This document shows positions 23,929 through 45,343 of a stretch of 64,000 bases of DNA, piece by piece; the stretch's first letter is position 1; the number at the start of each line of letters is the position of its first letter. The stretch is from positions 1-64,000 of the forward strand of contig PKUV01000077.1 in assembly GCA_003131315.1 (NCBI GenBank). The letters are read 5' to 3'. The position numbers and the translations under genes are program-made. This DNA is from Acidobacteriaceae bacterium. Lineage in GTDB: Bacteria > Acidobacteriota > Terriglobia > Terriglobales > Acidobacteriaceae. The notes beneath the pieces are model-generated. The model had not been told where the DNA came from and ran no database searches. It saw nothing but the letters and a program-made list of their open reading frames with translations.

Positions 23929-25539
23929 CTAGCGGAACACGTAATAAAGTACAGCCATGGTGAGCAGCAGTACGCCGGAGAGAAGCCTAGGCGCCAATGA
24001 ATTTGTTCCGGATTCACCGAAAATGACAGAAATAGGATTTTTCCACGTGAGGCCCTCGATCTGTTCGGGCCGAGGTGGTGGTGTGAGCAAACTCACGATC
24101 ACGTACAAGACACTGCAAAGGCAGAATACCCACCACGCCTGCATGAGGAACGGAATCCCCAGTTTATGGCTGATGATTTTCTCCGTGCCGAATACCGGAA
24201 GGTCGAGTACGAATGACAGTGCTCCTATCAGAAAACCGAACGTGAGCGTCGCAATCGAAGCCTGTTTTGTGCCGCGGCGCCAGAATATACCAAACAGGAA
24301 CACGGTCGTAATCGGAGGAGCGAGGTCGGCGGCAATGACATTGATTGCTTCAAAAATGCTGGAGTACCTGCCGCCCTGGGTTGACCACAGTATAGCCAGC
24401 AGCATAACTGCGACAGAACTGACGCGACCGACGAGCACCTGCATTTTGTCCGATGTCTGGGGCCGGAGCCTCTTGACAATGTCCACCGCGACGAGCGTTC
24501 CTGAGCTGTTTAGCGCGGCTGAAACTGCACTCAGGAGAGCCGCGAGAACAGCTGCGGAGATGAGCCCTTTAAGACCAGTCGGTAGTAACTGATTGATGAG
24601 AACCGGCAGGGTTTGATTGCTTGACGTACCGATCAGGTCCTTGAACAGCACGTAGGCGATTACGCCGGGTAGAACCAGGAAGAACACCGGCAAAATCTTG
24701 AGAAACCCGGCTAGCAGTGGGCCAAGCTGCGCATCACGCTCCGACCTCGCTCCTAACACGCGCTGCACAATTGTTTGATCGGTACACCAGTACCAGACGC
24801 CCAAGATCGGATAACCAAGAAAGATCGCGTACCAATTCAGACCGACGGCGCTATGCGATTGGAGCATATGCAACTGGTCAGGCCGCGTTGCCGCCGTGAA
24901 TTGGGCGAGCGTGTGAATACCATGTTGGGGCAGGGCAAGCAAGGCGTAGACGGTGATGATACAAGCGCCGATCAACAAGAATACGGTATTGAAAGTCTCG
25001 GTGATAACAACTGCCTTCAACCCGCCGAGCACCGTGTAAATCGAAACTACAATTGAGATTATCAGGATCGAGGTGACGACGCTGATTCCAAAGAACTGCT
25101 GGAAGACTGCGGCTCCCGCGTAGATGCTCATACCGATGTGGATGAACAGTGCGGCTACGATCGCCATGAAGGCCAGAAAAGAACGCGAGGCGGGGCTGTA
25201 ACGCCGCTCGAGAAACTCTGGCAATGTCGAGATTCTGCTACGGAAATAAAACGGTGCAAAGACGAGTGAAAGCAGGATCAGCGTGAATGCCGCCATCCAC
25301 TCGAAATTTCCCCAGACCAGACCTTCGTTATATCCGGACGCCGTAAGCCCAACCAGATGGATGGTAGAGATGTTGCTCGCGAAGAGCGCCGCACCCACAA
25401 TCCCCCAAGGAAGCGAACGACCGGCGAGGAAAAAAACTTGCCCGGTTACTGTTTGTTTCCGTGTGGAGAGTATGCCGATGCACAAAATCGCGATGATGTA
25501 GCCAACTATGATTGCTAGGTCGAGGATAGGAATTCGCAA
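23929..25539 (-). CDS. Sodium/sugar symporter, SSS (SGLT) family
   Basis: 536 residues with 13-14 hydrophobic segments. The N-terminal SSS signature is clear (VFFLAGRSLPW, LFASNISTIHLVGLTASGY, GNFEWMAA), as is the mid-protein GYPILGVWYWCTDQTIVQR typical of sugar SGLT members. Na+-coupled uptake across the inner membrane is expected; L-fucose is the likely cargo from context. It begins with TTG after AGGAGGAAA. It sits 30 bp after the zinc dehydrogenase gene in the same minus-strand operon. Confidence 0.9.
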   Translation of the reverse strand: MRIPILDLAIIVGYIIAILCIGILSTRKQTVTGQVFFLAGRSLPWGIVGAALFASNISTIHLVGLTASGYNEGLVWGNFEWMAAFTLILLSLVFAPFYFRSRISTLPEFLERRYSPASRSFLAFMAIVAALFIHIGMSIYAGAAVFQQFFGISVVTSILIISIVVSIYTVLGGLKAVVITETFNTVFLLIGACIITVYALLALPQHGIHTLAQFTAATRPDQLHMLQSHSAVGLNWYAIFLGYPILGVWYWCTDQTIVQRVLGARSERDAQLGPLLAGFLKILPVFFLVLPGVIAYVLFKDLIGTSSNQTLPVLINQLLPTGLKGLISAAVLAALLSAVSAALNSSGTLVAVDIVKRLRPQTSDKMQVLVGRVSSVAVMLLAILWSTQGGRYSSIFEAINVIAADLAPPITTVFLFGIFWRRGTKQASIATLTFGFLIGALSFVLDLPVFGTEKIISHKLGIPFLMQAWWVFCLCSVLYVIVSLLTPPPRPEQIEGLTWKNPISVIFGESGTNSLAPRLLSGVLLLTMAVLYYVFR

Positions 25540-25569: not shown

Positions 25570-26553
25570 CTATACGTCCGAATCATCCAACTCGACGATC
25601 GCCTTGATTAATCTCGATTTGCTGGGAAGATCTTTGAATCGCAGGGGCACCTCAGCCAGTGTCAAACGATCTGTGATCCATGGAGTTGTGTCAATCTTTC
25701 CTTCTTCAATCATCCGGATGATCCTGGGGAATTGAGCACAACTATTGCGGCTTGCGTAGATCGTAACCTCGCGCCGGTGCAGCAATGCGTCATTGATAAC
25801 GACCGGATCCTTCGTGAGTCCCACAAACACCAAACGCCCGCTTGCAGCTACATGTTCCAAGCTGTTGCTCATCGATTCTGAGCTTCCGGTGGCGTCGAAC
25901 ACAACGTCAGCGAGTTGGTCATTGATCTGGGGGAAGGCCTCCGCACCCATCAGTGCGGCAAACTTGCGACGCCACGGATTGTGCTCTACCACTCGCACGA
26001 TTGCGCCAGCAAGCTGCGCGAACTGGATGACACCAAGCCCGATTGGACCAGCTCCGATGACCAACGCGCTTTCGTCCTTCTTTAGGCCACTTCTGACCAC
26101 AGCATGCGCGCCAATCCCCAGAGTTTCAATCAGCGCCAACTGATCGAGCGATAAAGTCCGGGATTTATGAAGAAGATCAAGTCGCACGGACAGGAAGCCC
26201 TGCATCCCGCCATCAACATGAACGCCGTACAGGCGAAGTTGCTCGCAACAGTTGGTTCGGCCTCGGCGACAGGCGCGGCAAGAACCACAATAGATATAAG
26301 GGTCAATGGCGCACTTGTCGCCAACGCTGATGCCATTTTCGTTCTTCGGAATTTCGACAATTTCCCCCGCGAGTTCGTGTCCCAGTACGCGAGGATAGGT
26401 GTACACGGGATGGCGGCCAGCGAAGGCATGGAAATCGCTGCCGCACACCCCCACCCGCCGCATGCGCACCAAAGCCTCGCCGGTTTGTGCTGAAGACCGT
26501 TGCACTTGACGTTCGACCAACTCACCCGGCGCGGCTAGCAGGATCTGTCTCAT
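25570..26553 (-). CDS. Zinc-dependent medium-chain alcohol dehydrogenase
   Basis: 327 residues from the ATG at 26553 (AAGGAAG upstream); an in-frame start at 26655 lacks a ribosome site. Catalytic zinc ligands are Cys37 (GVCGSD) and the GHE motif at about 58-60. A structural-zinc cluster follows (YCGSCRACRRGRTNCC). The Rossmann fold shows VIGAGPIGLGVIQFAQ. It belongs to the MDR group that oxidises sugars, polyols or sugar acids. As first gene of the operon with the symporter, reductase and lactonase it probably oxidises a fucose-derived intermediate (for example 2-keto-3-deoxy-L-fuconate); this step is inference. Confidence 0.87.
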   Translation of the reverse strand: MRQILLAAPGELVERQVQRSSAQTGEALVRMRRVGVCGSDFHAFAGRHPVYTYPRVLGHELAGEIVEIPKNENGISVGDKCAIDPYIYCGSCRACRRGRTNCCEQLRLYGVHVDGGMQGFLSVRLDLLHKSRTLSLDQLALIETLGIGAHAVVRSGLKKDESALVIGAGPIGLGVIQFAQLAGAIVRVVEHNPWRRKFAALMGAEAFPQINDQLADVVFDATGSSESMSNSLEHVAASGRLVFVGLTKDPVVINDALLHRREVTIYASRNSCAQFPRIIRMIEEGKIDTTPWITDRLTLAEVPLRFKDLPSKSRLIKAIVELDDSDV

Positions 26554-26597
26554 TCTTACTTCCTTTTGCTGAACAGTCTTGTGAATGTAGAAAGCAA

Positions 26598-26610
26598 TTG
26601 GTTCAGCCAA
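26598..26610. promoter_or_regulatory. Candidate operator TTGGTTCAGCCAA
   Basis: A TTGG-N5-CCAA inverted repeat 45 bp upstream of the operon start at 26553, within the divergent region shared with the FadR-type regulator. A similar element, TTGGTTGGATCAA, occurs at 35702-35714 just after the promoter of TonB receptor 2. Assignment to the regulator is speculative. Confidence 0.3.
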
Positions 26611-26805
26611 GTTAAGTGCGACAGCATTATAGGTACCCCGGCCACTTACGGTCAAGGGAATTCAAGGACAATACTAAACCGACCGTCCAAAGCGATGATT
26701 AACACAACCAAGCCCAAAACCCAGACCGCTTATCGAGGAGCCGCCTAATTGCTGTACCAATGATGGCATCATCGTTAGGAATACGCTTTGGTCTACGCTT
26801 TTCTC

Positions 26806-26848: not shown

Positions 26849-27556
26849 ATGGCAAATTCAGTAAAAGCCCGTCTCAAGGAGCCGGTCGACACTCGGGTCA
26901 CCGCCAAGTTGATCGAGAAGATCAAGCGCCTTATCTCGACCGGAGCCGTCGCGCCAGGAGCTAAGTTTCCGCCCGAACGTGAGCTGGCGAAAGAGTTTGG
27001 TGTAAACCGGGCCTCCCTCCGTCAGGCCTTGAAAGTGCTTGAGATCATGGGTGTTTTGACCCAGAGAGTTGGCGACGGGACGTATCTCAGTGCAAGCGCG
27101 GAGTTGATTCTGAAGGAACCGCTTGATTTCCTGATCCTCCTGGACGATCTCTCGCACCACGAACTCATGGAGACACGCATGATCGTCGAACCGGAACTTG
27201 CGGCGCGAGCCGCCGAGAGGGCAACCACCGAGGATATCGTCAGCATGAGGCGTGCGATTGCCGCCATGGAAAGGTGCCGCACCAACCAGGAAAGACTGGA
27301 AGCAGATCTCGCTTTTCACCAGTGCATTTTCCGTGCCAGCGGGAACCGCATCTGCCATTTGCTGTTCAATGTGATTCACCGCAGCCTCTTGACCAGCATG
27401 TCGCAGCTTTCCACCCGCGTGCCGCTCGACCGGCCGCTCACATTTCATAAGCGAATCTTTGCAGCAATTCAACAGCGGAATGCGGAAGACGCCCGCCGCC
27501 AGATGCTTGAGCACATTAATGACATCAAAACACTTCTGGCCTCGACTACGAAGTAG
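26849..27556 (+). CDS. GntR-family regulator, FadR/FCD subfamily
   Basis: 235 residues: a winged helix at about 14-80 (APGAKFPPERELAKEFGVNRASLRQALKVL in two contiguous motifs) and an all-alpha FCD ligand domain at about 95-220 with the metal-binding DLAFHQCIF and ASGN segments. FCD regulators of this kind usually repress sugar-acid catabolic genes and respond to aldonates or keto-deoxy acids. It is divergent from the dehydrogenase-symporter-reductase-lactonase operon and lies in the middle of the fucoside locus, so it is the best candidate for its regulator. Confidence 0.9.
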   Translation: MANSVKARLKEPVDTRVTAKLIEKIKRLISTGAVAPGAKFPPERELAKEFGVNRASLRQALKVLEIMGVLTQRVGDGTYLSASAELILKEPLDFLILLDDLSHHELMETRMIVEPELAARAAERATTEDIVSMRRAIAAMERCRTNQERLEADLAFHQCIFRASGNRICHLLFNVIHRSLLTSMSQLSTRVPLDRPLTFHKRIFAAIQQRNAEDARRQMLEHINDIKTLLASTTK

Positions 27557-29856: not shown

Positions 29857-32163
29857 ATGCAGAGACGAGAATTCTTGAAGCTGAGCGGCGCGGCCTTGGC
29901 GGCCGCAACGGTCGTTCGCGGCCACCGTGAGGTTCTGCAAAGTGTAGCTGACGCCCAGTCGGGTTTGGCGGGAACATTCTACGTTGCTGCCTCCGGCAAC
30001 GACAACAATCCGGGCACGGCGAATCGGCCGTTCGTAACTCTCCAGCGGGCACAGCAGGCGGTTCGCCAAACGAACAACGGTTCCGCGCCGATCAAAGTCT
30101 TAGTCCGGGAAGGGACGTACTACCTGGAGGATCGGTTCACCCTCCGCCCTCAAGACTCCGGCACCAGCTCTGCACCAGTCATTTTTGCCGCCTATCCGGG
30201 CGAACGTGTCACCATCAGCGGCGGACGCAAACTAGCCTGTGATTGGACGCCTTACCAGGCCGGCATCATGATGACATCGGTTCCGTCGGGCCTCAATTTC
30301 AGCCAGCTCTTCATTAACGGCAAACGCCAGATCCGCGCTCGATATCCCAATTACGATGCCTCCGATCCAGGGAAATCGGGATACCTTCAGGCTGTTGGTC
30401 CGATCCCGCCAGGAACCACAAGCCTCTATGCGGGCCCTGACGACGATATGACATTTCCCACCGAAGCGCCCAGGGGAATTCGATTTGACCCCGCTACGTT
30501 CACCAAGAAGAAATGGGCGAATCCGCAGGATGCGGAGATCAACATTTTCCAGGCCGCGTATTGGGGAAACTTGCAATGGAAGATCAAAGGGATAGATTTC
30601 AGCACGAACTCGATCTGGTTTGGCGACGGCGGGAAGCAGATCGGCGCCAAGTGGAGCGAGAATCCCGCGGTTCTTAACCAGAGATCACGGTTCTTCATCG
30701 ACAACGTCCTCGAGGAACTGGATGCACCCGGGGAATGGTTTCTGGACAGGCAGAAAAACCTCCTCTACTACTATCCAGAACCAGGAACTGACTTGGGGAC
30801 GGCTTTGGTAGAAGTTCCTGTGTTCGAAGAAGCGATACGATTCATCGGCACGCAGGAAAACCCGGTCCATCACGTTTCGCTGCAGGGCTTTCGCATTGCG
30901 CATACGGTCGCGACATATCTCGACGCTTATGAAGTGCCATCCTTGAGCGATTGGGCGATTCACCGGGGCGGCTCCGTCTTCGCCGAGGGTACCCGCAATT
31001 GCTCCGTCGAAGCCTGCTGGTTTGACGCCGTGGGCGGTAACGCCGTGTTCGTGAACAACTACAACCGCGGATTTTCCGTGGCGGGCTGCAAGTTTACCGA
31101 GACTGGCGATAGTGCGATCTGCTTTGTTGGCGATCTGGAAAAAACCAATGGCACGCAGCGTGCGTTTCCGTACGAATGCCAGGCCAGCAACAACCTCATT
31201 CACGATTGCGGGTTTTTTGGCAAGCAGATCGCGGGGGTGTACATCTCCCGCGCCAAACGCATCACGGCCGGTCACAATCTGATTTACAACATGCCACGTT
31301 CAGCCATATGCATTGGTGACGGCACTTGGGGAGGGCACGTCATCGAGTACAACCAGACTCATGACACAGTCCGGGAGACCAGCGACCACGGTCCTTTCAA
31401 TGCTTGGGGACGTGACCGAGCATGGGCCTTGGCCCAGTCGCACGCGCCCTACACCGCGAACCGTAGCCTGGATGCGTGGGATGTGCTCGTCGACGCCATG
31501 GAACCCGTCATCGTTCGCAACAACTTCTTTGATGAGAAATCCGGCTGGGGTCTGGACTTGGACGATGGTGCTTCGAATTACGAGATCTACAACAACATCT
31601 CCGTGGGCGGCGTCAGTGTGAAGTTGCGTGAAGGCGCATACCGCAAGGTTTACAACAACATCTGGTACTTGTCGAAGGGTGCTCCCTGTTTCCACGTGGG
31701 AAACAATGACAACCATGACCAGTACTTCAACAACATTACCGTCATGGATCCCGGTCAAACCAAGTGGCCTGATGGCTGGCCATGGTGGCCGCAAATGGTT
31801 TACTCGGTGATTGCACCGCCTGCAGTGGGACCATGGTTCGAAAAAATCGACAACAACTGTTTCTACTGTGTAGGCGGAGAATTCCAGGCAGTCGTGGATC
31901 AGTTGCGCTCCGAAGATGGAAAACGCAATGCGAAACGCTACAACCTGGAGGAGTGGCAGAAGTTGGGTTTTGATCAGCATTCCGTCTTCGCCGACCCTCT
32001 TTTTGTTGATCCCAAGAACCATGACTTCCAGGTGCGGACGGAATCGCTGGCCTTGAAAATTGGCTTCAAGAACTTCGAAATGGGCAAGTGGGGATTGAGC
32101 GAAAACTTCCCTAAACAGTGGCGCGAACCCAAAACCTATCGTGCGAGTGAGAGGAAACTATGA
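29857..32163 (+). CDS. Tat-exported right-handed beta-helix glycosidase, GH141-like
   Basis: 768 residues. A twin-arginine signal (QRREFLKLSGAALAAAT) is followed by the start typical of GH141/beta-helix enzymes (FYVAASGNDNNPGTANRPF, LQRAQQAV, VLVREGTYYLEDRF). Then come many short beta-helix coils with Asn ladders (YNQTHDTVRETSDHGPF, NNISVGGVSVKLREG). GH141 contains alpha-L-fucosidase and xylanase activities. With a GH29 fucosidase and fucose-type catabolic genes nearby, fucoside hydrolysis in the periplasm or outside the cell is the favoured role. A polysaccharide lyase of the same fold remains possible. It overlaps the mutarotase gene by four bases. Confidence 0.75.
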   Translation: MQRREFLKLSGAALAAATVVRGHREVLQSVADAQSGLAGTFYVAASGNDNNPGTANRPFVTLQRAQQAVRQTNNGSAPIKVLVREGTYYLEDRFTLRPQDSGTSSAPVIFAAYPGERVTISGGRKLACDWTPYQAGIMMTSVPSGLNFSQLFINGKRQIRARYPNYDASDPGKSGYLQAVGPIPPGTTSLYAGPDDDMTFPTEAPRGIRFDPATFTKKKWANPQDAEINIFQAAYWGNLQWKIKGIDFSTNSIWFGDGGKQIGAKWSENPAVLNQRSRFFIDNVLEELDAPGEWFLDRQKNLLYYYPEPGTDLGTALVEVPVFEEAIRFIGTQENPVHHVSLQGFRIAHTVATYLDAYEVPSLSDWAIHRGGSVFAEGTRNCSVEACWFDAVGGNAVFVNNYNRGFSVAGCKFTETGDSAICFVGDLEKTNGTQRAFPYECQASNNLIHDCGFFGKQIAGVYISRAKRITAGHNLIYNMPRSAICIGDGTWGGHVIEYNQTHDTVRETSDHGPFNAWGRDRAWALAQSHAPYTANRSLDAWDVLVDAMEPVIVRNNFFDEKSGWGLDLDDGASNYEIYNNISVGGVSVKLREGAYRKVYNNIWYLSKGAPCFHVGNNDNHDQYFNNITVMDPGQTKWPDGWPWWPQMVYSVIAPPAVGPWFEKIDNNCFYCVGGEFQAVVDQLRSEDGKRNAKRYNLEEWQKLGFDQHSVFADPLFVDPKNHDFQVRTESLALKIGFKNFEMGKWGLSENFPKQWREPKTYRASERKL

Positions 32164-32573
32164 GAAAGAAACTTTTGGCGATACTGATTGCAGGCGCTGT
32201 GTTTTTCGCAGTGGGGCTATATGGGAAGAGTCAGAGCCCCCAGGTGCAGCGCGTGGGTATGGTGATCGGGCTAAAGCCCGATCAGATCAGCGCCTATGAA
32301 GCGCTGCATGCGGCTTCCAATGCGGGTGTGCGCGATCTGTTGGAGAAATATCACATGCACAATTTCTCCATCTACATGCATAGACTCGACAATAGGCAGT
32401 ACTACCTATTTGGGTATTACGAGTACACCGGCACGGATTACAACGCAGACATGGCAAAACTTGCGGCTGAACCCCGCAACCAAAAGTGGCTCTCCGTTAC
32501 GGGTCCGATGCAAGTTCCGCTTCCCGGGGAGCAGTCCTGGGCGACGATGAAAGAGGTCTATCACAACCCTTAA
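32160..32573 (+). CDS. Exported L-rhamnose/L-fucose mutarotase-family protein
   Basis: 137 residues. The C-terminal 105 or so match the RhaM mutarotase family, a dimeric ferredoxin-like fold that interconverts alpha and beta anomers (RVGMVIGLKPDQISAYEALH, YHMHNFSIYMHRLDNRQYYLFGY as adjoining motifs, LAAEPRNQKWLSV). Unlike ordinary cytoplasmic RhaM of about 104 residues it carries an N-terminal hydrophobic signal or anchor (LLAILIAGAVFFAVGLY), so it probably acts outside the cytoplasm. ATG overlaps the stop of the GH141-like gene (ATGA), with GAGAGG upstream. It would present freshly released sugar in the anomer preferred by the symporter or dehydrogenase. Confidence 0.82.
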   Translation: MRKKLLAILIAGAVFFAVGLYGKSQSPQVQRVGMVIGLKPDQISAYEALHAASNAGVRDLLEKYHMHNFSIYMHRLDNRQYYLFGYYEYTGTDYNADMAKLAAEPRNQKWLSVTGPMQVPLPGEQSWATMKEVYHNP

Positions 32574-32980: not shown

Positions 32981-34309
32981 TTAAGCCTCGAGAGGCTCAA
33001 CCAGATAGAGATCTCGTCCGGCTTGTTCCACGATCAGAGTGTCAGGGTCGCTGTCGTAATCTTCCCGATGGAAGGCGTGTGGGTCCATAAAGCGCAGATT
33101 CACTTGCCGGCAGGTGTCTGGATCGACCGCCGATGCCAAGGTGATCGAATAACGCGGCACGATTGTGCCGTCGGTGAGCCGTCGCCCCGCAAAACTGACG
33201 TGCGCAAGGTGAGCTGCCACGCAAAGGTTCTGCTGCAATTCTGGCGATTGCGCGACCAGTTCGCGGATCCTCTCCAGCGGGGCATAACCGTATCGCTTGA
33301 TCAACGCGCCGTGAGTCTCAGACAAGGAAGTAAGGTGCGGGGCGTAGATGATCAGTGCACCATCCTCTTCGATCACCGGGCCGAGACGGTAGCTCGCTTT
33401 GCCGCCAACCCAGAGATCTTCATAGTGCTCATCGAGCAAAGCGATGACTCGCTTGTACTTTCGTCCCGTGTATTTGATATGGACGTGGCGGCTCACATCG
33501 GCCGCTTTTCGAACAGCTTGCCGGAAGTCCCCACAAAAAAGCGCGTGCGTACGGAGTCGGCCACTGTCGCGCGTTACGACTGAGCTAAGCGAGATTACCC
33601 GGGAGGGCACGAAATCCGCAGCCGCTTCGAACAGGTGACGCGGAGGTGTTTCCACCCGGCCAATGACATTTTCAATGGTTGCTAATGCACCTAACCAGTG
33701 CGTGGCGTGGGTCAGTTCCGGTCCGGCCACGCCGGGAAAGAAGTATTTTGCCCCGCCAGAAAAACCTGCAACTTCATGCGGAGCAGTTGTTCCGAAGATC
33801 AAGACAGTATCGTAGAGTCCAGGGGCCAGCAGTCGGTTGACTTTCAACTCTATCGACCTGTCAATTAACCCGCCGGTAATCTCTTTCACACGTGCAGCAT
33901 TCAAAACGCCGATCGTCACCAGTTTGTTTGGATCCGCCCAGTCGTGGTCGAAGATGTGACCGAGCCCGGGCATTTGTGTTGTGCCAACGGCTCCGATCTT
34001 TGTCCGCTTATCCCGCTCGCTCATTGGCGCGTGGGTGCCTTGCGCGACAAGAGCATCAAGCTTTGCAATTTTGCGATCTGCCAGGATCTGAACCGCCGAA
34101 GGGAACAAAACATCCGTGTTATCGTCCCGCGTTTTATCTGCCACAATCGCCAAGACAGATGAGCCTGAAGAGATTGTGGAGAGGGCCTCCGAAAGGATTT
34201 CGCGCAGTTCGGCTGGAGAGAGATCGAAATTCGGGTGGCCTTTCCCGGTTATGAAAGACGCCGGCGCGGATACGATGCTCACTTTCGAACCTCCCGGTTG
34301 GAACGGCAT
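32981..34309 (-). CDS. LarA-family nickel-pincer racemase/epimerase
   Basis: 442 residues of the lactate-racemase (LarA) family, which uses the nickel-pincer nucleotide (NPN) to racemise 2-hydroxy acids by hydride transfer. Residues equivalent to the L. plantarum active site are visible: Arg61 (ADKTRDD), His93 (QGTHAP), His178 (APHEVAG), Lys188 (SGGAKYFFPG) and His204 (THATHW). The His-Lys and Lys-His spacings (10 and 16) equal those of LarA. LarA homologues include sugar-acid C2 epimerases. In this locus a sugar acid such as fuconate is a likelier substrate than lactate (inference). The NPN biosynthesis genes larB, larC and larE are not in the window. It is 14 bp behind the PfkB kinase gene. 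Confidence 0.85.
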   Translation of the reverse strand: MPFQPGGSKVSIVSAPASFITGKGHPNFDLSPAELREILSEALSTISSGSSVLAIVADKTRDDNTDVLFPSAVQILADRKIAKLDALVAQGTHAPMSERDKRTKIGAVGTTQMPGLGHIFDHDWADPNKLVTIGVLNAARVKEITGGLIDRSIELKVNRLLAPGLYDTVLIFGTTAPHEVAGFSGGAKYFFPGVAGPELTHATHWLGALATIENVIGRVETPPRHLFEAAADFVPSRVISLSSVVTRDSGRLRTHALFCGDFRQAVRKAADVSRHVHIKYTGRKYKRVIALLDEHYEDLWVGGKASYRLGPVIEEDGALIIYAPHLTSLSETHGALIKRYGYAPLERIRELVAQSPELQQNLCVAAHLAHVSFAGRRLTDGTIVPRYSITLASAVDPDTCRQVNLRFMDPHAFHREDYDSDPDTLIVEQAGRDLYLVEPLEA

Positions 34310-34323
34310 TGTTTCATCTTTGC

Positions 34324-35406
34324 TCAGCGCTGAACGCGCGCCGTCCCGCCCTGCGCAAAGGATCGGACTTGGTCTAATGTCGCCATTGTCGTGTCGCCGG
34401 GAAAAGTCGTAAGGAGCGCACCATGTGCCCAGCCAAGTTTCATCGCTTGTTCCGGTGACTCCCCGGCGAGAATCCCGTAGAAGAATCCGGACGCGAAACC
34501 ATCGCCGCCGCCGATACGGTCGTAAACGTCGAGTTCACATTGTGGAGACATGCAGGTTTGACCATTGATCCATGCCACACCGCCCCAGCCGTGACGGTTC
34601 GTGGAATGGACTTCACGTAAGGTAGTGGCGATGATCTTGATCTGAGGATACCGCTGCAGAACCTTATCAATCATCCCCAGGAAGGCGCGCGGGTCGAGTT
34701 TTGATGTCGCAGTCGCCTCGGGGCCGGTAATCCCAAGCCCTTTTTGCAGATCCTCTTCGTTGCCGACGAGAACATCGACGTTTCTTAGAATGCGTCCAAT
34801 CACCTGGCGCGCACGCTCTTGTCCACCCGATAGATTCCACAGCTTCTCCCGGAAGTTCAGATCGAAGGAGACAACGGCCCCGGAGTTCCTCGCGGCCTGC
34901 ATGGCCTCAATGATCAACTGCGGGGTCGTATCAGAAAGAGCCGCGAAAATCCCGCCGCTATGAAACCAGCGTACGCCGGAGCCGAAAATTGTATTCCAGT
35001 CAAAGTCGCCTGGTTTCAGTTCCGCCGCTGCCTCATTCGCCCGGTTGTAAAAGACCACGGGCGCACGCACACCGTATCCACGGTCGCTATAGACAGCAGC
35101 GATATTGGGGCCGTTGACGCCATTATGCTGGAACATTTTATAGAACGGGGTCACACCCATGGCCCGAACCCTATCGGCGACAAGGTCGCCGATAGGATAC
35201 TTGACCATCGCGGTAACGATGCCCGTCTGCAGGGCGAAACAGTCCGAAAGGTTGGCGGCTACATTGAATTCACCACCGCTGACGTGAATCTGGCATTGGT
35301 TCGCCTTGCGGAAAGGAATGATGCCCGGGTCGAGCCGATGAACAAGCGCGCCGAGACACACGAAGTCTAGGGTTGCCGAGTCACGAATTGTAAGACCGTA
35401 GTTCAT
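34324..35406 (-). CDS. PfkB-family sugar kinase (2-keto-3-deoxygluconate kinase-like)
   Basis: 360 residues from ATG 35406 (GAGAG upstream; the frame is open to 35430). Ribokinase/PfkB features: GGEFNVAANLS near the N-terminus, VSFDLNFREKLW, VLVGNEEDL and the C-terminal anion-hole/catalytic segment DRIGGGDGFASGFFYG. This arrangement is typical of 2-keto-3-deoxy-aldonate kinases. The likely reaction is ATP-dependent phosphorylation of a keto-deoxy sugar acid. It precedes the LarA-family gene by 14 bp in a two-gene minus-strand unit divergent from TonB receptor 2. Confidence 0.83.
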   Translation of the reverse strand: MNYGLTIRDSATLDFVCLGALVHRLDPGIIPFRKANQCQIHVSGGEFNVAANLSDCFALQTGIVTAMVKYPIGDLVADRVRAMGVTPFYKMFQHNGVNGPNIAAVYSDRGYGVRAPVVFYNRANEAAAELKPGDFDWNTIFGSGVRWFHSGGIFAALSDTTPQLIIEAMQAARNSGAVVSFDLNFREKLWNLSGGQERARQVIGRILRNVDVLVGNEEDLQKGLGITGPEATATSKLDPRAFLGMIDKVLQRYPQIKIIATTLREVHSTNRHGWGGVAWINGQTCMSPQCELDVYDRIGGGDGFASGFFYGILAGESPEQAMKLGWAHGALLTTFPGDTTMATLDQVRSFAQGGTARVQR

Positions 35407-35769
35407 GGCGATCACTCTCGAAAAGCACATTCAGCGCCGGAGCCGCATGTTGCCGGGGTCACTTCTCTTCTTAGGCAGCTGAACACAAGTTGTACATATT
35501 GGATGAACCATCCCGCTACATCGTAGGAGCAAGACGGGTGCTTCGTCAATCGTTAAGCCCGAAATCGATAAACAACACCAATATCACTTCATTTATCGCC
35601 TAATCGAAGCAATCAAAGCGGTCATTGTGGCTTGCAAGTCCCCTTGAAACAAAAAGTGCTTGACAGCGAAAATGGGGCGGTGCTACCGTTTGCGGTCGTG
35701 ATTGGTTGGATCAATTTGCACCCGTCTTTGTAGAGCTAAACTTCTTGGGAAACAGAAGAGGGTAGACAC
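35407..35769. other. Divergent promoter region (kinase / TonB receptor 2)
   Basis: About 360 bp with no gene. It is AT-rich compared with the flanking genes, holds the receptor promoter at 35660-35689 and the candidate operator at 35702-35714. No clear promoter for the kinase could be assigned. Confidence 0.45.
35660..35689 (+). promoter_or_regulatory. Predicted promoter of TonB receptor 2
   Basis: TTGACA at 35660-35665, an 18-base spacer and TACCGT at 35684-35689. This is the same -35 hexamer and spacer length as seen for receptor 1. TTGGTTGGATCAA at 35702-35714 lies just downstream of the expected start. Confidence 0.45.
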
Positions 35770-38700
35770 ATGAGATCTCCGAATTGCGCTTCGTTGAGAA
35801 TCCTGATTTTGGCAACGTTAGGTACGGCTATCTGTTTCGGCTTGTCCGGCACAGTCGCAGCTCAAGCCGGGACCGCTGCAGCCGCTCTGAACGGCACGGT
35901 CCGAGATCCTTCGGGGGCGGTGGTGCCAGACGCAACGATCACCCTGACCAATACCAGAACCGCGTTCAAGCAAGTGGCGAAAAGCAACTCGACCGGAAAC
36001 TATTCCCTGGTTAATATCACTCCGGGGAACTACACAGCTACGGTTTCGAAAGAGGGTTTTTCCACCGGGAAGTCACCCGAGTTTGAACTCTCGGTGAATC
36101 AGACAGCCACCATTAACTTCGATTTACAAGTTGGCAGCGCCAACAGTACGGTTGAGGTCTCCGCGGGCGGCGTACAGATCGAAACATCCACGGCCGAACT
36201 TGGGACTGTGATCGGAACCAGCGAAGTCAGCTCCTTGCCGCTGAATGGGCGCAATTTCACAGAGCTACTGCTGCTCGGACCTGGAATCAGTTCCATAAAC
36301 ACTACGGAGGGCGTCAGTGGGATCGGTAATCCAATCGGGACCGTCGTTCTTCCCGCGGTGAATGGCCAAAACAACCGCAGCAACATGTTTCTGCTGGATG
36401 GCGTCAATGACTATGGCTCGATTCGCGACACCTATGCCGTGCAGCCCACGATGGATGACATCCAGGAGTTCAAACTCCAATCCCACAACGACGAAGCGCA
36501 GTTCGGACAGGTCCTGGGTGGGATCATAAACGTGGTTACCAAGTCAGGAGGCAACCAGTTCCATGGTGGCGCCTGGGAATTTCTGCGAAACGACGCAATG
36601 GATGCGGCAAACTATTTCAACCCAGTCAAGACCCCGCTGAAGCAAAACCAGTTCGGTGGAGCAATCGGTGGCCCAGTGATTTTGCCGCACTATAACGGCC
36701 ACGATAAGACGTTCTTCTACGTTTCCTACGAGGGATACCGCAACCACACCGCATCGAACAACTTCTTTCGGACCCCAACCGCGGCGCAATTAGCCGGCGA
36801 CTTCAGCAATCTCGACGGCCAAACACAGATCTATAATCCGTTCAGCTCGGTCGCTGACCCCACGACCGCAACGGGATTCGCTCTCCAACCGTTTATGTGC
36901 GATGGGACTGGGGTGCCGCTCCCGGCCCCGGGCAATATCCAGCCAGCAGGAACTCCTTGCAACAAGATTCCGTCCAGCATGCTCAACCCCTCGACGGTTT
37001 ACTTTGCGCAGACGTTCTACCCGGCCCCGGTCGACGTACCCGGTTACCCACAATGGAATGGCCGCGATACGACTCCGAATATTACCCGTCAGGATCAGGT
37101 TTCCGTTCGTTTCGACCAACAATTCGGCACGAAGGATCGCCTTTTCGTGCGGTGGACGGCAGCCTGGCAGCCTGTTACCGGATCCGGAGGTTACCCGGGG
37201 TTAAACACAAATACCAAGAATAGCAATTACAACGTGGCGGTGAACTGGACCCACACTTTTGGTCCAAGTTCTGTGCTGCAGCTAACATTTGGTCGTGTTT
37301 CAGCACAGAACAACCGCACACCAAATTTCGCGAATGTGCCGTCGGACTTCTCCCAAAACTCTGGATTTGCTAGCTATTTCTACAACCACGGGGTTTTTGG
37401 TGGCCTCCGCGTTCCGTCGATTCAAGTTGGCGAAAACTACATCGCTGGCACCAATTATGTCGGTAAGCTGCATTACTCAAACATTTGGGAATACCGCGGC
37501 GATTACTCCAAAACTGTTGGACGGCACAACTTCCGCACGGGCGCGAGCCTGGCCACCGATGGATGGGAACAACCATTCTACGGCTCCGAGGCTGACTTTG
37601 CTCAGACGCAGACGCAGAATGGTAATCTGGACCCGAATACCGGCGACGCCATGGCGTCCATGGTGCTGGGTGTCCCGGATTATGCCGAAGTGGACAACGT
37701 GTATTCGCTGCTCCACGGCGGAAAGATCATCGGAGGCTATTTCCAGGATCAGTGGAGGGTCACCGATAAGCTCACAATCAACTGGGGCGTGCGTTACGAC
37801 CTCACCGTCAATCCTCGCCAAGGCAAGGCATCCAACGGAAGCAACATTACTGGCAACTTCGACTTCAGCAACGGAACCTACATTCTCCAGAACCCCGCTC
37901 CGGCATGTTCGTCAAGCCAGGGGGCACCCTGCATCCCCCCTGGAACTGATCTTACACATATCACGATCGCGAAAAACGGAAAAATCAACAACGATAACTA
38001 CGACAATTTTCAGCCCAGAATCGGTTTTGCCTATCGCCTGACACCGGGAACAGTTATGCATGGTGGATATGGCAGGTTCTTCGACAATTGGGCGGGTCTA
38101 ACTGAGAATCAGTCGAACTACACCCAGCTCTGGCCGAATGTGGCGTTCGTAGCCTCACCCGGCGGCTTCAATCTCTTCGGACCACCCACCGGGCTAGCTA
38201 ATGATCCTCTCAACTTTGGAAACAATGCGGTTATTCAGCCCGCGCCATCGCCGTTTGACCCTCTAAATTGGAGTCCTTACACCGACCCCCACCTCAAGAA
38301 CGGGTATTCGGATCAATGGAATTTCGGATTCCAGCGAGATCTGGCTCCGGGTGCTATCGCAACCATCAACTACGTAGGCTCGCGTAACGCGCGAATCGCC
38401 ACCACGGTCACGGCCAATGCTGCGCCCACGCCTGGGGGGGCCATCCCTTACCCGTACATTTTGATTGCGCAAGTGCCATACACGAAGAGCATCTCGTCAA
38501 CCGACTACAACGCGCTGCAAATTTCCTCACAAGTCAAGTTGCATTCCGGGATCACTTCTACGATTGCATACACCTGGTCGAAGGCGCTCACTATCGGTTG
38601 TGACGGGTACAACTCCGGCTGCGTGATCCAAAACCCATACAATTTGAAGATGGATCGAGGCCCAGCGGCCCACGATCTCCGCCACATCTTCACCGGCAGC

Positions 38701-39234
38701 TTTGTACTTCCGCTTCCGTTTGGCGGAGGAAGACGATTCAGCGCGGGCAGCAGGTTTGTGAATCACATCATCGGTAACTGGCAGCTGAATGGAATCGTGT
38801 CTTTGCACAGTGGGCCGGGTTATAGCGTGTTTACCGATAATTCGATTTCCAATATCCAAAACTTTAATGGCGCCGAACTTGCCAATCTGGTGGGAGATCC
38901 TCACGCGAGCACCCCCGGGTATCCGCTGGACAAAGTACATCCGATTAACCCAGCAGCTTTCGCCAACCCCGATCCGGGATCTTTCGGGCATATGGGGCGA
39001 AACACTCTGCGCGCCGACTGGGGCAGGAACTTGGATCTTTCGTTGTTCCGGTCGTTCTCCATATCCGAGTCCAAGAGATTCGAATTCAGAGCCGAAGCTT
39101 TCAACGCGACCAATACGCCGATAATGGGGTATCCCGACACCAATCTTCTAGATGGCCCGGGTTTTTTTGGCGTAGTTTCTTATCAAGCAAACACAGAGCG
39201 CCAGATGCAGGTTGCGTTGAAGTTTTATTTCTAA
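35770..39234 (+). CDS. TonB-dependent receptor, Oar-like (receptor 2, fucoside locus)
   Basis: 1154 residues. The signal peptide ends TVAAQA. A carboxypeptidase-regulatory-like domain follows at about 37-118 (LNGTVRDPSGAVVPDATITL ... LVNITPGNYTATV), then a plug at about 130-260 (LPLNGRNFTELLLLGPG, MFLLDGVNDYG, VVTKSGGNQFHGG) and a barrel ending in QVALKFYF. GAGGGTAGACAC precedes the ATG. Lying between the kinase/racemase unit and the fucosidase genes, it is expected to import fucose-containing oligosaccharides across the outer membrane. That cargo is inference from context. Confidence 0.92.
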   Translation: MRSPNCASLRILILATLGTAICFGLSGTVAAQAGTAAAALNGTVRDPSGAVVPDATITLTNTRTAFKQVAKSNSTGNYSLVNITPGNYTATVSKEGFSTGKSPEFELSVNQTATINFDLQVGSANSTVEVSAGGVQIETSTAELGTVIGTSEVSSLPLNGRNFTELLLLGPGISSINTTEGVSGIGNPIGTVVLPAVNGQNNRSNMFLLDGVNDYGSIRDTYAVQPTMDDIQEFKLQSHNDEAQFGQVLGGIINVVTKSGGNQFHGGAWEFLRNDAMDAANYFNPVKTPLKQNQFGGAIGGPVILPHYNGHDKTFFYVSYEGYRNHTASNNFFRTPTAAQLAGDFSNLDGQTQIYNPFSSVADPTTATGFALQPFMCDGTGVPLPAPGNIQPAGTPCNKIPSSMLNPSTVYFAQTFYPAPVDVPGYPQWNGRDTTPNITRQDQVSVRFDQQFGTKDRLFVRWTAAWQPVTGSGGYPGLNTNTKNSNYNVAVNWTHTFGPSSVLQLTFGRVSAQNNRTPNFANVPSDFSQNSGFASYFYNHGVFGGLRVPSIQVGENYIAGTNYVGKLHYSNIWEYRGDYSKTVGRHNFRTGASLATDGWEQPFYGSEADFAQTQTQNGNLDPNTGDAMASMVLGVPDYAEVDNVYSLLHGGKIIGGYFQDQWRVTDKLTINWGVRYDLTVNPRQGKASNGSNITGNFDFSNGTYILQNPAPACSSSQGAPCIPPGTDLTHITIAKNGKINNDNYDNFQPRIGFAYRLTPGTVMHGGYGRFFDNWAGLTENQSNYTQLWPNVAFVASPGGFNLFGPPTGLANDPLNFGNNAVIQPAPSPFDPLNWSPYTDPHLKNGYSDQWNFGFQRDLAPGAIATINYVGSRNARIATTVTANAAPTPGGAIPYPYILIAQVPYTKSISSTDYNALQISSQVKLHSGITSTIAYTWSKALTIGCDGYNSGCVIQNPYNLKMDRGPAAHDLRHIFTGSFVLPLPFGGGRRFSAGSRFVNHIIGNWQLNGIVSLHSGPGYSVFTDNSISNIQNFNGAELANLVGDPHASTPGYPLDKVHPINPAAFANPDPGSFGHMGRNTLRADWGRNLDLSLFRSFSISESKRFEFRAEAFNATNTPIMGYPDTNLLDGPGFFGVVSYQANTERQMQVALKFYF

Positions 39235-39419: not shown

Positions 39420-40196
39420 ATGGCTTACCGTGGTTTGGATCTAAAGGGCAGAACCGCCGTGGTAGTCGGCGGTACGTCCGGCATTGGCCGGGCAATCGCC
39501 CTGGGACTGGCAAACGCGGGTGCTGATGTCGTCGCAAGTGGTCGCCGACCTGACCAAGTAAAGGTAGTTGCCGCCGAAATCGAAGCCGTGGGCCGTCAGG
39601 CTTTGTCCATCACAGTGGATGTCAACGACAAGTCTTCACTCGAGCACCTGCTCTCTGCTGCCTTGGATGCATTCGGAAAAGTGGACATCCTTGTCAATTC
39701 CGCCGGTCAGATAAAACGGGGACCTACGATCGACTCGTCCGAGAGCGATTGGCACGGCATTCTGGATACGAATCTCATGGGTGTGCTTCGCGCCTGCCAG
39801 GTTTTCGGCCGACACATGCTTCAAAAGGGATATGGGCGAATCATTAACATCACTTCGCTCAATGCATTCGTCGCGCTGCACGAGGTTGCTGCCTACGCAG
39901 CAAGCAAAGCGGCGGTCCAGTCACTGACGAGGTCCTTGGCTGTCGAATGGGCAACCTGTGGAGTTTGCGTCAATGCGATCGCGCCGGGTGTATTTCCGAC
40001 CTCGTTGAATTCGAAGTTACTACAGGGCGCCGGCAGAGGGCAAGAACTGCTGATGCGGACACCGATGAAAAGGTTTGGAGATGCGGAAGAGGTAGTGGGT
40101 GCAGCCATTCTTCTTGCTTCAGACGCAGCCAGCTTTATGACCGGTTCCGTAGTGATAGTCGACGGCGGTTTTTTGGCCAGCGGTGTGAATCAGTGA
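39420..40196 (+). CDS. SDR-family oxidoreductase
   Basis: 258 residues, classical short-chain dehydrogenase: nucleotide-binding GGTSGIG at 17-23, NSAG in the mid fold, catalytic Ser146 (INITSLN), Tyr159 and Lys163 (YAASK). The C-terminal GGFLASG end is intact. Close in style to gluconate 5-dehydrogenase, glucose dehydrogenase and 2-keto-3-deoxy-L-fuconate dehydrogenase, and the last would fit the locus. GGGAGGGAAA precedes the ATG. The exact substrate cannot be read from the sequence. Confidence 0.88.
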   Translation: MAYRGLDLKGRTAVVVGGTSGIGRAIALGLANAGADVVASGRRPDQVKVVAAEIEAVGRQALSITVDVNDKSSLEHLLSAALDAFGKVDILVNSAGQIKRGPTIDSSESDWHGILDTNLMGVLRACQVFGRHMLQKGYGRIINITSLNAFVALHEVAAYAASKAAVQSLTRSLAVEWATCGVCVNAIAPGVFPTSLNSKLLQGAGRGQELLMRTPMKRFGDAEEVVGAAILLASDAASFMTGSVVIVDGGFLASGVNQ

Positions 40197-40504: not shown

Positions 40505-41248
40505 TGGATTAACAGGCTGGTTACCGGCGCGAGTAGCGGCATAGGTGCAGAGACGGCAATCCGATTTGGGGCCAACGGCGCGTATACGCTTATTCACTAC
40601 TATGAAAACCTGCAGGGCGCCACAGAGGTTCTTGAGCGGATCCGCCGTACCGGTGGCGATGGGGAACTCATCCCCGCAGATTTAAGTCATGCTACGACGA
40701 TTGCACAATTCACGCGTCTACTGGAGAGCATGCAGAGACCGATTGACATCTTGGTCAATAACGCGGGCTCGCTAATAATGAGAAAACCGTTCCTGTAAAT
40801 TACCCAAGAACTGTGGGTAGAAGTCTTCACATTGAATGTAACAAGTGCTTTCCTTACGACAAAGGCTGTTATTCCCTTGATGCTGCAGCGCCAGCGAGGT
40901 TTTGTGGTGAATATTTCCTCAGTACCTGCTCGCTTTGGCGGCGGAATTGGGTCAATTGCGTACTCCTCTGCAAAGGCGGCACTGTCTGCCATGACCAAGG
41001 GACTCGCTCGGGAATTTGGACCAAAAGGCATCCGCGTAAATGCAGTATCACCTGGCGCCATCGATACCAATTATCACAAGAAGTTCTCTACGCGGGAGGC
41101 ACTTGATGCAGTTGTAGCGTCGACCCCGTTACAGCGCCTTGGAACCGGGGCTGATATTGCCGATGTGGTTGTTTTTCTTTGTTCGGAAGGGGCACGTTTC
41201 ATCCAGGGCCAGATTATCGAGGTGAACGGGGGCTTTCTGATGGTTTGA
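40505..41248 (+). pseudogene. SDR-family oxidoreductase, inactivated
   Basis: A second short-chain dehydrogenase: the glycine motif (VTGASSGIGAETA), VNNAGSL, the SxxxxxxxxxxYSSAK active site and the GGFLMV end are all readable in one frame. A TAA at 40797-40799 interrupts it after MRKPFL, where the family normally has Glu (GAA to TAA is a single change). The N-terminus also lacks an in-frame start: ATGGAT at 40504 is out of phase with the rest. The 3' part is open from 40832. Probably recent decay. Confidence 0.8.
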
Positions 41249-41358: not shown

Positions 41359-42906
41359 ATGAGCTACACACGACGAGATATTCTAACGGCCAGCTTGGCC
41401 CTTTCTGCAGGGTCTCTGCTTGCAAACACCCCTTTAGCGGCAAGTGCAACCAGTGCGGCAAAAGAGACGAATGCAGGCGCGGCAGTTGGCAAGCTTTTTC
41501 AGCCGACGTGGAACTCCCTAAGAACGTTGAGCACACCGCAGTGGCTGAGGGATGGAAAATTCGGGATCTACACGCATTGGGGCGTGTATTCCGTTCCTGC
41601 TTTTGGGAAAAATGGTACCTGGTATATCAACAACGTTTACTGGAAACCAGACTCTCCTCAGAGAAAATACCATGAGGCTACGTACGGTCCCCTCGAAAAA
41701 TTCGGTTATAAGGACTTTATCCCGATGTTCACCGGCGCGAAGTTCGATGCCGATGAGTGGGCAGACCTATTCCGTAGGGCGGGAGCCCGCTTTGCGGGGC
41801 CAGTGGCAGAACACCACGACGGATTCTCGATGTGGGATACCAAATATTCGGAATGGAACGCAGCGAAGATGGGGCCTAAACAAGACGTTGTTGGCAAACT
41901 CTCAAAGTCAATCAAAGGCCACGGAATGAAGTTTGTCACAGCATTCCATCACGCAGAAAACTGGTTCTTCTTCCCCACTACCGATAAACGCTATGACTGC
42001 TCGGATCCCCGCTACTCCGGTTTGTACGGCCCAATTCATGAGGAGGGCGCGCTGCCATCAAAGGAGTTTCTTGATAAGTGGAAGGGGAAAATCATCGAGG
42101 TCGTGGACAAATACGACCCTGACCTCATCTGGTTTGATTTCGGATTAGAAATGGTTCAGGAGAGCTACAAGAAAGATATGCTTGCATACTATTTCAACAA
42201 AGCGGCTCGAGCAAGGAAGGATGTGACCGCTACGTATAAGCACCACGATCTTCCACCTGGGGTTGGCGTGGATGACTTGGAATTAGGCCAAGAGCGCGAG
42301 TTGACGTACAACGATTGGATCACCGATTCCTCCGTCGATAATCAGGGAGCATGGGGCTACGTTCGCGATGCGGGTTTCAAGTCTGTTGACAATTTGGTGG
42401 ACAATCTCGTCGATCGCGTGAGCAAGAACGGGTATTTGCTACTCAACGTAGGTCCCAAACCAGATGGCACTATCCCGGATGAGGCTAAAGAGCGGCTGCT
42501 CGGTCTGGGGAAGTGGCTTGATACCAACGGCGAAGCCATCTACGGCACCACACCTTGGCTTATTGCCGGTGAAGGCCCAACGCAACTCGAGAAGAACGGA
42601 CCGTTCAACGAGAGCAACGAGCTCCGTTACACAGCGCAGGATATACGCTTCACTGCCAAAGACAACGTCCTTTACGCGATTGCCCTCGATTGGCCTAGCG
42701 ATAAGATTCTTATCAGGAGCCTTGTCCCGAAGGGACGGACTTGGACTGGGCTGTATCCGTCGGAAATCGCCTCCATCAGTATGCTCGGGGATGGAAACGA
42801 GCTTAAGTGGGAGATGGCGAAAGAAGGTCTAATTGTAGAGACCCCGAAAGTGAAGCCATGTGATTACGCTTTCGCTTTCAAGATCGTCCGCAAATCGCCA
42901 TTTTGA
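41359..42906 (+). CDS. GH29 alpha-L-fucosidase, Tat-exported
   Basis: 515 residues. A twin-arginine signal (SYTRRDILTASLALSAG) directs it to the periplasm or beyond. The GH29 core is clear: WLRDGKFGIYTHWGVYSVP at about 62-80, EHHDGFSMWD at 151-160 and the nucleophile Asp260 in LIWFDFGLE. The later conserved segments (NGYLLLNVGPKPDG, LGKWLDTNGEAIYGT) are intact, followed by a small C-terminal beta domain. It removes terminal alpha-linked L-fucose, and this gene anchors the reading of the locus as fucoside utilisation. GAGGAG lies upstream of the ATG. Confidence 0.95.
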   Translation: MSYTRRDILTASLALSAGSLLANTPLAASATSAAKETNAGAAVGKLFQPTWNSLRTLSTPQWLRDGKFGIYTHWGVYSVPAFGKNGTWYINNVYWKPDSPQRKYHEATYGPLEKFGYKDFIPMFTGAKFDADEWADLFRRAGARFAGPVAEHHDGFSMWDTKYSEWNAAKMGPKQDVVGKLSKSIKGHGMKFVTAFHHAENWFFFPTTDKRYDCSDPRYSGLYGPIHEEGALPSKEFLDKWKGKIIEVVDKYDPDLIWFDFGLEMVQESYKKDMLAYYFNKAARARKDVTATYKHHDLPPGVGVDDLELGQERELTYNDWITDSSVDNQGAWGYVRDAGFKSVDNLVDNLVDRVSKNGYLLLNVGPKPDGTIPDEAKERLLGLGKWLDTNGEAIYGTTPWLIAGEGPTQLEKNGPFNESNELRYTAQDIRFTAKDNVLYAIALDWPSDKILIRSLVPKGRTWTGLYPSEIASISMLGDGNELKWEMAKEGLIVETPKVKPCDYAFAFKIVRKSPF

Positions 42907-43867
42907 GCAGATCAATGCACCATCACGAAAGAATTCGAACAACAACAACCAGCCTGCAGGCGCGAAGTATGAGCCATGGGGAATAGATGGTGATCCAGAA
43001 GAAGATCCAGAAGAACTGTGGAGCACCGCCGCCCCAGGAGTTCCCCCACCAAAGTGGACCTGTGGTGCGCACAAATTCGATCAGCAGCTTGCAACCTGTA
43101 GAAGTCCCGAGGCATTCGGAGCCTTTCACGTTCGATTCTATCAACCCGAGTTGCGGGACGGACAGCTCACACGCGTGCAGAAGTCGCACCGTCTCTGTGC
43201 CAAGGATCGGAAGCACTACTCACCGAAGTCGAAGCCAGTGCAGTTGCTGTGCGATGACCTCTTGCGCAAGGTGAACACAGCGACGGTGACCGAGCAGGAC
43301 ACGACGGTCGCGCAGTTCTGGGAGAAGCACTACCTGCCGTACTGCGAAGAGATGGTCAAGCTGACCGGCGAACCACGCAAGAAGGTTTCGACGATTCGCG
43401 GCTACAAGCAAATTTGGAAGCAGCATCTCGAAGCGCACTTTGGCAAGCTCACGCTGCAAGAGTACGAGCCACACCTCGGCACTCGGTTTCTTCAATCCTT
43501 AACCGGTACACAGGCAAAGAACACACTCAAGCACGTCCGCGCGTGCGCGTCATCCTTATTCAAGCGCGCCGTCAACGAGCAGCGGATCAAGACTAATCCC
43601 TGGCACGAGGTGCAGATGCCGGACGATGCGATCGAGTCGAGCGAGACACAGCACTACACGCTCGAAGAAGCCGAGAACATCATCTCGGCGCTGGTGGACC
43701 ACGTCGATTGCCAGCTGGTGATGGCGCTCTCTTGCTTCCTCGGCTTGCGTCCGGGCGAGATCGCTGCGCTGCGCTGGGAAGACTTCGACCCAGAGAGTGT
43801 GAACATCAGGCGTTCAAGCGGTGCGCCGATGCGTTTGTCCGCGCCGATTTGCGTCTGCGTGTTTTAG
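42860..43867 (+). pseudogene. Tyrosine integrase, N-terminal part only
   Basis: Integrase-like sequence starts at about 43130 (HVRFYQPELRDG). The SAM-like core-binding domain and the first catalytic Arg (LGLRPGEIAALRWEDFD) are present. The frame then loses similarity and stops at 43865-43867, so the HxxR and Tyr boxes are missing. There is no credible start: the frame opens inside the fucosidase 3' end and the first 90 residues are low-complexity. The protein is distinct in style from the integrase fragment at 14923. It is non-functional residue of an element next to ardC. Confidence 0.7.
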
Positions 43868-44868: not shown

Positions 44869-45343
44869 TGTTTTTTCCTTTGTCTGCCCGGTGGGGCGTT
44901 TTTTTCTTTCACCCAGAGCGAAGCGAAGGAAAAAACGGACCACCGGGAGACAAAGAGGAACGACGGAGGGCGGGGGGGAAGGACCGAGAGGCGGGCAGGG
45001 CAAGTGCCAAACAGCCTTATCGTTTGGCGCGCAGCCGTGCTGTCCCGAAGGGCCGTCCCGAAGCGAAGCGGAGTGGTCACCCTCGACCGTGGGAGTGGAG
45101 AAAAGACGCGCGGCCAAGCGCATCCGGGCAGTTGCTTTTGCGTTGCAGAATTAGGCACTGGAGCGAAAAAATAAGCTTGTCAGATATGACTACTAAAACT
45201 GATGGGAATCAGCACACAGCGGGCACCCACGGGAAGTCTCAAACGTGGTGAGCGTGGCGTTGGCGACTCACCGACATCCATGTAAGTCGGCGGGGCAAGT
45301 AGCTTGTTCCGCTCAGAACGCTGCCGTGACAGCGCTGCGTGAT
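44869..45343. other. Non-coding region upstream of ardC
   Basis: About 475 bp with purine/pyrimidine-skewed, low-complexity tracts. Frames through it are not credible as genes. It probably holds the ardC promoter and the element end. Confidence 0.4.

Follow-up and report, generated by a model that had tools for sequence, protein, structure and literature searches.

The window, a 64,000 nt stretch of an Acidobacteriaceae bacterium contig (PKUV01000077.1), contains a two-gene module on its minus strand, in which a PfkB-family kinase gene (34324-35430) precedes a gene of the nickel-dependent LarA family (32981-34309). We consider it likely that the LarA protein epimerises D-mannonate to D-gluconate and that the PfkB protein is a gluconate kinase. 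As an epimerase the LarA protein is unremarkable within its family, its chemistry having already been published; the new element is its pairing with the kinase, which looks to have been recruited from another sugar-acid kinase family and is a predicted gluconate kinase. On balance, we also favour the broader view that, within hexuronate catabolism, a clade of Acidobacteriota PfkB proteins derived from KDG kinases phosphorylates gluconate (or mannonate) alongside three diverged LarA classes; gluconate kinase would then have arisen independently here, taking the place of GntK in the nickel route.

The 442 aa open reading frame at 32981-34309, which has an ATG start, is a genuine member of the LarA superfamily with a complete active site, predicted to bind the nickel-pincer nucleotide (NPN) and to act as an epimerase. 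Its Lar_N domain scores 64 bits (E = 1.5e-17) against a Pfam cut-off of 23.3, and LarA residues D72, R75, H108, H174, K184, H200 and K298 align with D58, R61, H93, H178, K188, H204 and K304. The His-Lys and Lys-His spacings, of 10 and 16 residues respectively, are those of LarA (H178-K188-H204 against H174-K184-H200 in the reference numbering of PMC7583248), as was claimed in an earlier note on this DNA that had called the frame LarA-like. These seven catalytic or NPN positions are invariant across 50 aligned LarA-family sequences, a set in which the window appears a second time as L024 and from which six further rows, four with stops and two too short, were dropped. The AlphaFold model (pLDDT 87) has 19 matches in the PDB at E<=1e-3, every one of them LarA-family, the foremost being 4NAR (E = 6.3e-42, TM 0.85/0.89). 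The same entry is the best match in a sequence search of the PDB (E = 3.7e-56), the sole other match at E<=1e-3 being a lactate racemase (6e-4).

A LarA homologue was detected at E<=1e-20 in 75 of 396 sampled Acidobacteriota genomes, and these homologues were sorted by score into classes I, II and III; the 50 aligned sequences, sorted by best match, fall into three clades in a midpoint-rooted tree. The window protein belongs to class I, with 34-39% identity to class II and 30-36% to class III, save for one class III match at a contig end that reads 42%. Some class I homologues appear to have an in-frame stop or to be split in two pieces (L030 in genome G197, L032 in G038, and L023), which may be real or may reflect assembly errors. 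In genome G348 the homologue lies inside an 833 aa open frame (L060:8121-10619), of which the approximately 425 upstream residues have no Pfam match at E<=1e-6, with Pfam recognising only Lar_N; this frame may be a read-through.

The structure 4NAR is GntE2 of Thermotoga maritima, an assayed D-mannonate/D-gluconate 2-epimerase (PMC7583248), and the window protein is probably best read, on its sequence, as an NPN-dependent epimerase of this GntE type. The positions that determine specificity (F175, F176, W358 and T359 in LarA1) are E179, V180, A366 and H367 in the window protein; this combination is usual for GntEs, whereas lactate racemases carry F, F, W and E or Q (PMC11770544). Among the aligned sequences all three classes carry these same four residues, save for one gap at the A and H positions. 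The expectation of an aldonate rather than lactate as the likely substrate is supported, both by GntE2 being the nearest structure and by residues that are not those of a lactate racemase. The idea that C2 epimerisation would be a distinctive step fared less well: D-mannonate/D-gluconate 2-epimerases of the LarA family have already been assayed (PMC7583248, PMC11770544), and Rodionova et al. 2012 (cited in PMC6978723) had already pointed to gntE homologues in Acidobacterium and Terriglobus. The proposal was therefore right in kind, but not in its novelty. Membership of LarAH group 18 was considered and rejected, as the best NCBIfam model, NPN_18_hexonate (NF052594, putative hexonate epimerase), gives 220.9 bits, far under its equivalog cut-off of 500; the window protein is therefore treated as part of a related clade unnamed in NCBIfam.

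The LarA enzyme would carry the nickel-pincer nucleotide, the product of LarB, LarC and LarE. The earlier note had expected the cofactor genes to lie elsewhere, and had regarded a genome lacking NPN biosynthesis genes as decisive against its reading. All three were found in the window's genome (G000), once each over cut-off and on three other contigs: larB on C153 (300.1 bits, cut-off 175, with one more match below cut-off), larC on C73 (223.5 bits, cut-off 90) and larE on C17 (304.8 bits, cut-off 150, with two more matches below cut-off).

The kinase gene ends 14 bp upstream of the LarA gene on the same strand, and the pair are therefore probably a single transcript with the kinase first. PfkB is detected at 60.2 bits (E = 2.8e-16; Pfam cut-off 25.8), and the GGGD motif, ending in D310, is invariant in the alignment. 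By both sequence (E = 3.2e-49) and fold (TM 0.80/0.89), the nearest PDB entry is 2AFB, the T. maritima KDG kinase TM0067. The best KDG kinase equivalog model gives only 124.1 bits, under its cut-off of 440, and a model of aldolase-kinase fusions gives 245.4 bits of the 700 required. The KDG-site residues, mapped from the Thermus thermophilus KDG kinase, are presumably kept, a point against the gluconate reading.

Kinases with 66-77% identity to that of the window (the window itself being 100%) were found in 37 of the 396 genomes and are here termed clade A; they are sharply set apart from 99 further matches having 33-48% identity. In the kinase tree clade A is recovered as a single clade with modest support (0.82); the remaining homologues do not form one, and 'others' is used for them as a shorthand. 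Several residues are fixed in the 33 clade A sequences aligned, a number that includes the window a second time, and never occur in the 28 others, among them S51 (G in the others), E133 (T or S), H280 (N) and G311 (S). The other group has gaps at two N-terminal columns of the underlying alignment. A further candidate, N109 (R in the others), was dropped as alignment-dependent, a second alignment having N109 invariant in both groups.

The two sets of kinases keep different company. Within 6 kb of clade A kinases were found LarA at 20 of 37 loci, Gnd at 18, UxaE at seven, UxuB at six and KDPG aldolase at one; any of the first four was present at 26, and none of them at 11, some of which are cut by contig ends. 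Among 25 other kinases (20 of the better-scoring of the 99 further matches, plus five from genomes already studied), KDPG aldolase is near 21, UxaE and UxuB near one each, and LarA and Gnd near none. Flanks spanned 4-6 kb in most cases around the clade A kinases and some 4 kb around the others, shorter at contig ends, such that the counts are lower bounds in both sets. The association extends to whole genomes, with LarA present in 34 of the 37 genomes that have a clade A kinase, compared to 75 of 396 overall (P = 8e-25, ignoring phylogeny), and in 20 of 22 clade A genera compared to 32 of 211 (P = 9e-18, again ignoring phylogeny), one genus (g133) qualifying via different genomes. In the window the LarA match lies 18 bp from the kinase match, thereby linking the kinase to a predicted gluconate-forming enzyme, and KDPG aldolase is not at the locus; the same genome has a kinase outside clade A, 125 bp from a KDPG aldolase gene, on contig C60.

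Given the clade A association with LarA and Gnd, that of the others with KDPG aldolase, and the residues fixed in clade A, we infer that the clade A kinases phosphorylate a hexonate, most simply D-gluconate, to yield the substrate of Gnd. The earlier note had paired the epimerase with a keto-deoxy sugar kinase. A co-oriented PfkB kinase is indeed present, but the keto-deoxy role sits poorly with a clade found with LarA and Gnd and rarely with KDPG aldolase, and with the separate kinase-aldolase pair elsewhere in the genome; the window kinase is therefore probably of the PfkB family without being a keto-deoxy sugar kinase.

The neighbourhoods of LarA in related genomes, counted by tblastn because longest-ORF gene calls lose genes to long antisense frames, are in many cases those of hexuronate and gluconate metabolism. 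Three of 16 named relatives (L011, L012 and L021), whose LarA orthologues are 68-69% identical to that of the window, have the order UxaE-UxuB-PfkB-LarA, followed by an Ldh2-family gene, and also encode a GH28 enzyme close by. Gnd, UxaE and UxuB are recurrent neighbours of the class II and III homologues. Of four SDRs tested against the D-mannonate oxidoreductase model (cut-off 281), the UxuB-type proteins of L011, L054 and L064 passed, at 355.6-359.2 bits, and the SDR1-type protein of L070 fell below, at 235.8 bits. Class I genes with no kinase in the stretch examined include L016-L019, which adjoin KduI and GH88, and L013, near an altronate/galactarate dehydratase; the clade A kinase is absent from the stretches examined of 10 of the 16 named relatives, and from six of the nine sampled genomes with a class I LarA. 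This frequent lack of the kinase counts against the proposed pairing. Many of the relatives have a hexuronate or gluconate context around LarA; the window, where LarA lies within a fucose locus, has just the kinase and SDR1 close to it.

In the proposed pathway, D-fructuronate would be reduced to D-mannonate by an SDR reductase, here probably the KduD-like SDR1 (39420-40196, plus strand), predicted to be a fructuronate reductase, or D-mannonate dehydrogenase. The LarA enzyme would then invert C2 of D-mannonate by proton-coupled hydride transfer, and the resulting D-gluconate would be converted by the PfkB kinase to 6-phosphogluconate, which would enter the pentose phosphate pathway via 6-phosphogluconate dehydrogenase. 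The single 6PGDH (Gnd) match in the window's genome is of the short type, on contig C147, and exceeds the cut-offs of two models, naming NAD and NADP respectively. As for SDR1, among its best 25 NCBIfam models it passes only the broad PRK07231 'glucose 1-dehydrogenase' subfamily (216.2 bits of 215), and passes neither the KduD nor the D-mannonate oxidoreductase model; its assignment as fructuronate reductase is our inference from the neighbourhoods of its homologues. Those with 64-68% identity lie beside a clade A kinase with UxaE and LarA in genomes G049, G217, G382 and G388, and in G394 the homologue adjoins LarA and KDPG aldolase. SDR1 homologues of at least 64% identity and UxuB are each found at six of the 37 clade A loci, with no overlap between them. 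A second gene, SDR2 (40517-41248, plus strand), matches its L010 homologue by tblastn in one frame over 243 residues but is interrupted by an in-frame stop, leaving only 40832-41248 open; the stop is either a mutation or an assembly error.

The alternative that survives best, which we nevertheless think unlikely, retains the same epimerase but makes the kinase a second KDG kinase: mannonate or gluconate would be dehydrated, by ManD or a gluconate dehydratase, to make KDPG for KDPG aldolase, the epimerase merely widening the range of entering aldonates. The closest relatives of the window kinase, both KDG kinases and the aldolase-kinase fusion model, accord with this, as does the clade A locus of G394, with the order SDR1-KDPG aldolase-LarA-kinase. 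The window's genome also encodes ManD and KDPG aldolase. KDPG aldolase was found in all 15 genomes searched, and a ManD D-mannonate dehydratase is encoded on contig C94 (L121:7769-9784; 717.8 bits, cut-off 550), its best PDB matches including entries named mannonate dehydratase, adjoined by a paralogue of SDR1 with 64% identity. Mannonate can therefore also be consumed by dehydration, without any need for the epimerase, which weighs against the preferred reading. An argument from the absence of a mannonate dehydratase was dropped for the same reason: UxuA was found in none of the 15 genomes searched (from the 75 with LarA), with control genomes positive in five of 14 cases, but ManD is unrelated to UxuA, and the lack of one therefore does not show the lack of the other. 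UxaE was not found in a search of the window's genome, a further point against the preferred reading, and no clear gluconate dehydratase was seen among its one ILVD/EDD and seven MR_MLE matches. Six of the latter are over cut-off: ManD accounts for one, three others score above the cut-off for o-succinylbenzoate synthase (the closest PDB entries of one of these being N-acylamino acid racemases), and the remaining two reach the cut-off of no model among those listed. Weighing against a second KDG kinase are the opposite associations of the two sets, clade A being near KDPG aldolase once and Gnd 18 times in 37, and the others 21 times and never in 25, together with the kinase-aldolase pair already present on C60.

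Rather improbable, in our judgement, is that phosphorylation comes first, with the kinase acting on mannonate and LarA epimerising 6-phosphomannonate to 6-phosphogluconate. Both activities have been reported in extracts of Lactobacillus suebicus (PMC6978723), and the tie between the kinase clade and Gnd suits this order as well, as Gnd needs 6-phosphogluconate either way. However, the nearest characterised homologue, GntE2, acts on free D-mannonate (PMC7583248), and at six clade A loci (G188, G014, G125, G367, G325 and G380) Gnd is near the kinase without LarA in the flank examined, which fits gluconate better than mannonate as the substrate of the kinase; LarA is encoded elsewhere in five of the six genomes.

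A comparably doubtful reading, that of the earlier note, is that the epimerase serves the surrounding L-fucose or L-galactose pathway, inverting C2 of L-fuconate or L-galactonate. The note's description of a sugar-acid locus is supported, with genes for sugar oxidation, lactone opening and glycosidases around the pair, and in other respects this is a fucose locus. On the minus strand are an L-fuconolactonase-type amidohydrolase (22127-22963), whose best PDB match (3.7e-55) is 4dlf, named 'Amidohydrolase 2', which we take to be a fuconolactonase; an aldo/keto reductase of the L-galactose/L-fucose dehydrogenase type (22969-23898; best PDB match L-galactose dehydrogenase, 2.7e-107); a sodium:solute symporter (23929-25539; SSF 1.3e-69); and an RspB-like zinc alcohol dehydrogenase (25570-26655). 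On the plus strand are a GntR/FCD regulator (26849-27556; FCD 1.1e-24, GntR 5.5e-17), a GH141-like glycoside hydrolase (29857-32163; GH141_M 6.7e-9), a RhaM-family sugar mutarotase (32160-32573; rhaM 1.6e-19), an outer-membrane beta-barrel receptor, probably TonB-dependent (35770-39234; OMP_b-brl_4 3.7e-188), and a GH29 alpha-L-fucosidase (41359-42906; Alpha_L_fucos 8.8e-97).

Mobile-element genes flank the sugar locus on both sides. An ArdC-like anti-restriction protein (43864-45123, minus strand) lies beside the fucosidase; a frame without a Pfam match that looks like an integrase fragment is at 42860-43867 on the plus strand; a phage integrase match is found at 14923-15804 and an IS4/5-type transposase fragment at 1447-2058, both on the minus strand.

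The predicted genes of the window for L-fucose or L-galactose oxidation and lactone opening, with those for GH29, GH141 and RhaM, are grounds for a fucose-linked epimerase, along with L010, which keeps SDR2-SDR1-LarA with GH141-RhaM-regulator-AKR-ADH and in which no kinase was seen by tblastn in the 21 kb examined. However, orthologues with 64-69% identity in L011, L012, L016-L019 and L021 are surrounded by pectin or KduI/GH88 genes, and these loci have no match at E<=1e-20 to the GH29, GH141, RhaM, AKR, Zn-ADH, symporter or fuconolactonase genes of the window; an AKR match of 41% is nonetheless present in L054, which also carries LarA, the kinase and UxuB. Furthermore, a 6-deoxy acid would offer the kinase no 6-OH, and the L-fucose pathway is not known to need C2 inversion. 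L-fuconate and L-galactonate are thus not favoured as substrates, many relatives adjoining UxaE, mannonate oxidoreductase, Gnd or pectin genes, though the window's own LarA sub-lineage may have a fucose-linked one.

The Ldh2-family ('malate/L-lactate dehydrogenase') gene adjoining LarA in L011, L012 and L021 could point to another hydroxy acid, but this family also includes sugar-acid dehydrogenases. A plain lactate (or malate) racemase is very improbable. In its favour are this gene, low scores against Ni_dep_LarA (47.1 bits of the 460 required) and against NF052593, a model of malate racemase (66.8 of 500), and a GntR regulator whose best NCBIfam model is LldR (122 bits of 311); against it are E, V, A and H in place of the F, F, W and E/Q of lactate racemases (PMC11770544), and GntE2 as the nearest structure.

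Should the prediction of a gluconate kinase hold, assignment by similarity alone would mislead for a group of kinases whose closest named relatives are KDG kinases, and many Acidobacteriota would possess the kinase of a nickel-dependent pathway that leads from pectin-derived uronates into pentose phosphate metabolism. The analysis also names substrates that can be assayed directly for a LarA superfamily branch as yet uncharacterised. A literature search, made largely by title and with subscription papers mostly outside its coverage, returned no PfkB-family gluconate kinase.

The closest known system is that of T. maritima, comprising gnd, uxaE, uxaD, gntE and gntK (PMC3750489). Its GntE2 (4NAR) shares with the window protein the fold, the catalytic and NPN residues, the loop E and an aligned AAH motif, but the two are only around 30% identical in structural alignment, and the second loop residue is S in GntE2 (PMC7583248) and V in the window. 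The T. maritima operon and the relatives of the window LarA have UxaE, mannonate oxidoreductase and Gnd as partners in common (PMC3750489); in the window, by contrast, UxaE and Gnd are not adjacent, the former not being found genome-wide and the latter lying on another contig. LarAH group 18, the best NCBIfam model, has the same predicted chemistry but a cut-off that the window protein falls well short of, and its function is itself presented as a hypothesis (PMC7583248). The kinase resembles TM0067 (2AFB) as its closest structure, but clade A differs from KDG kinases of that type in having LarA and Gnd rather than KDPG aldolase as neighbours, and in its clade-specific residues. Where T. maritima has gntK, the Acidobacteriota relatives with this gene set, and likewise the window, carry a PfkB gene in its place.
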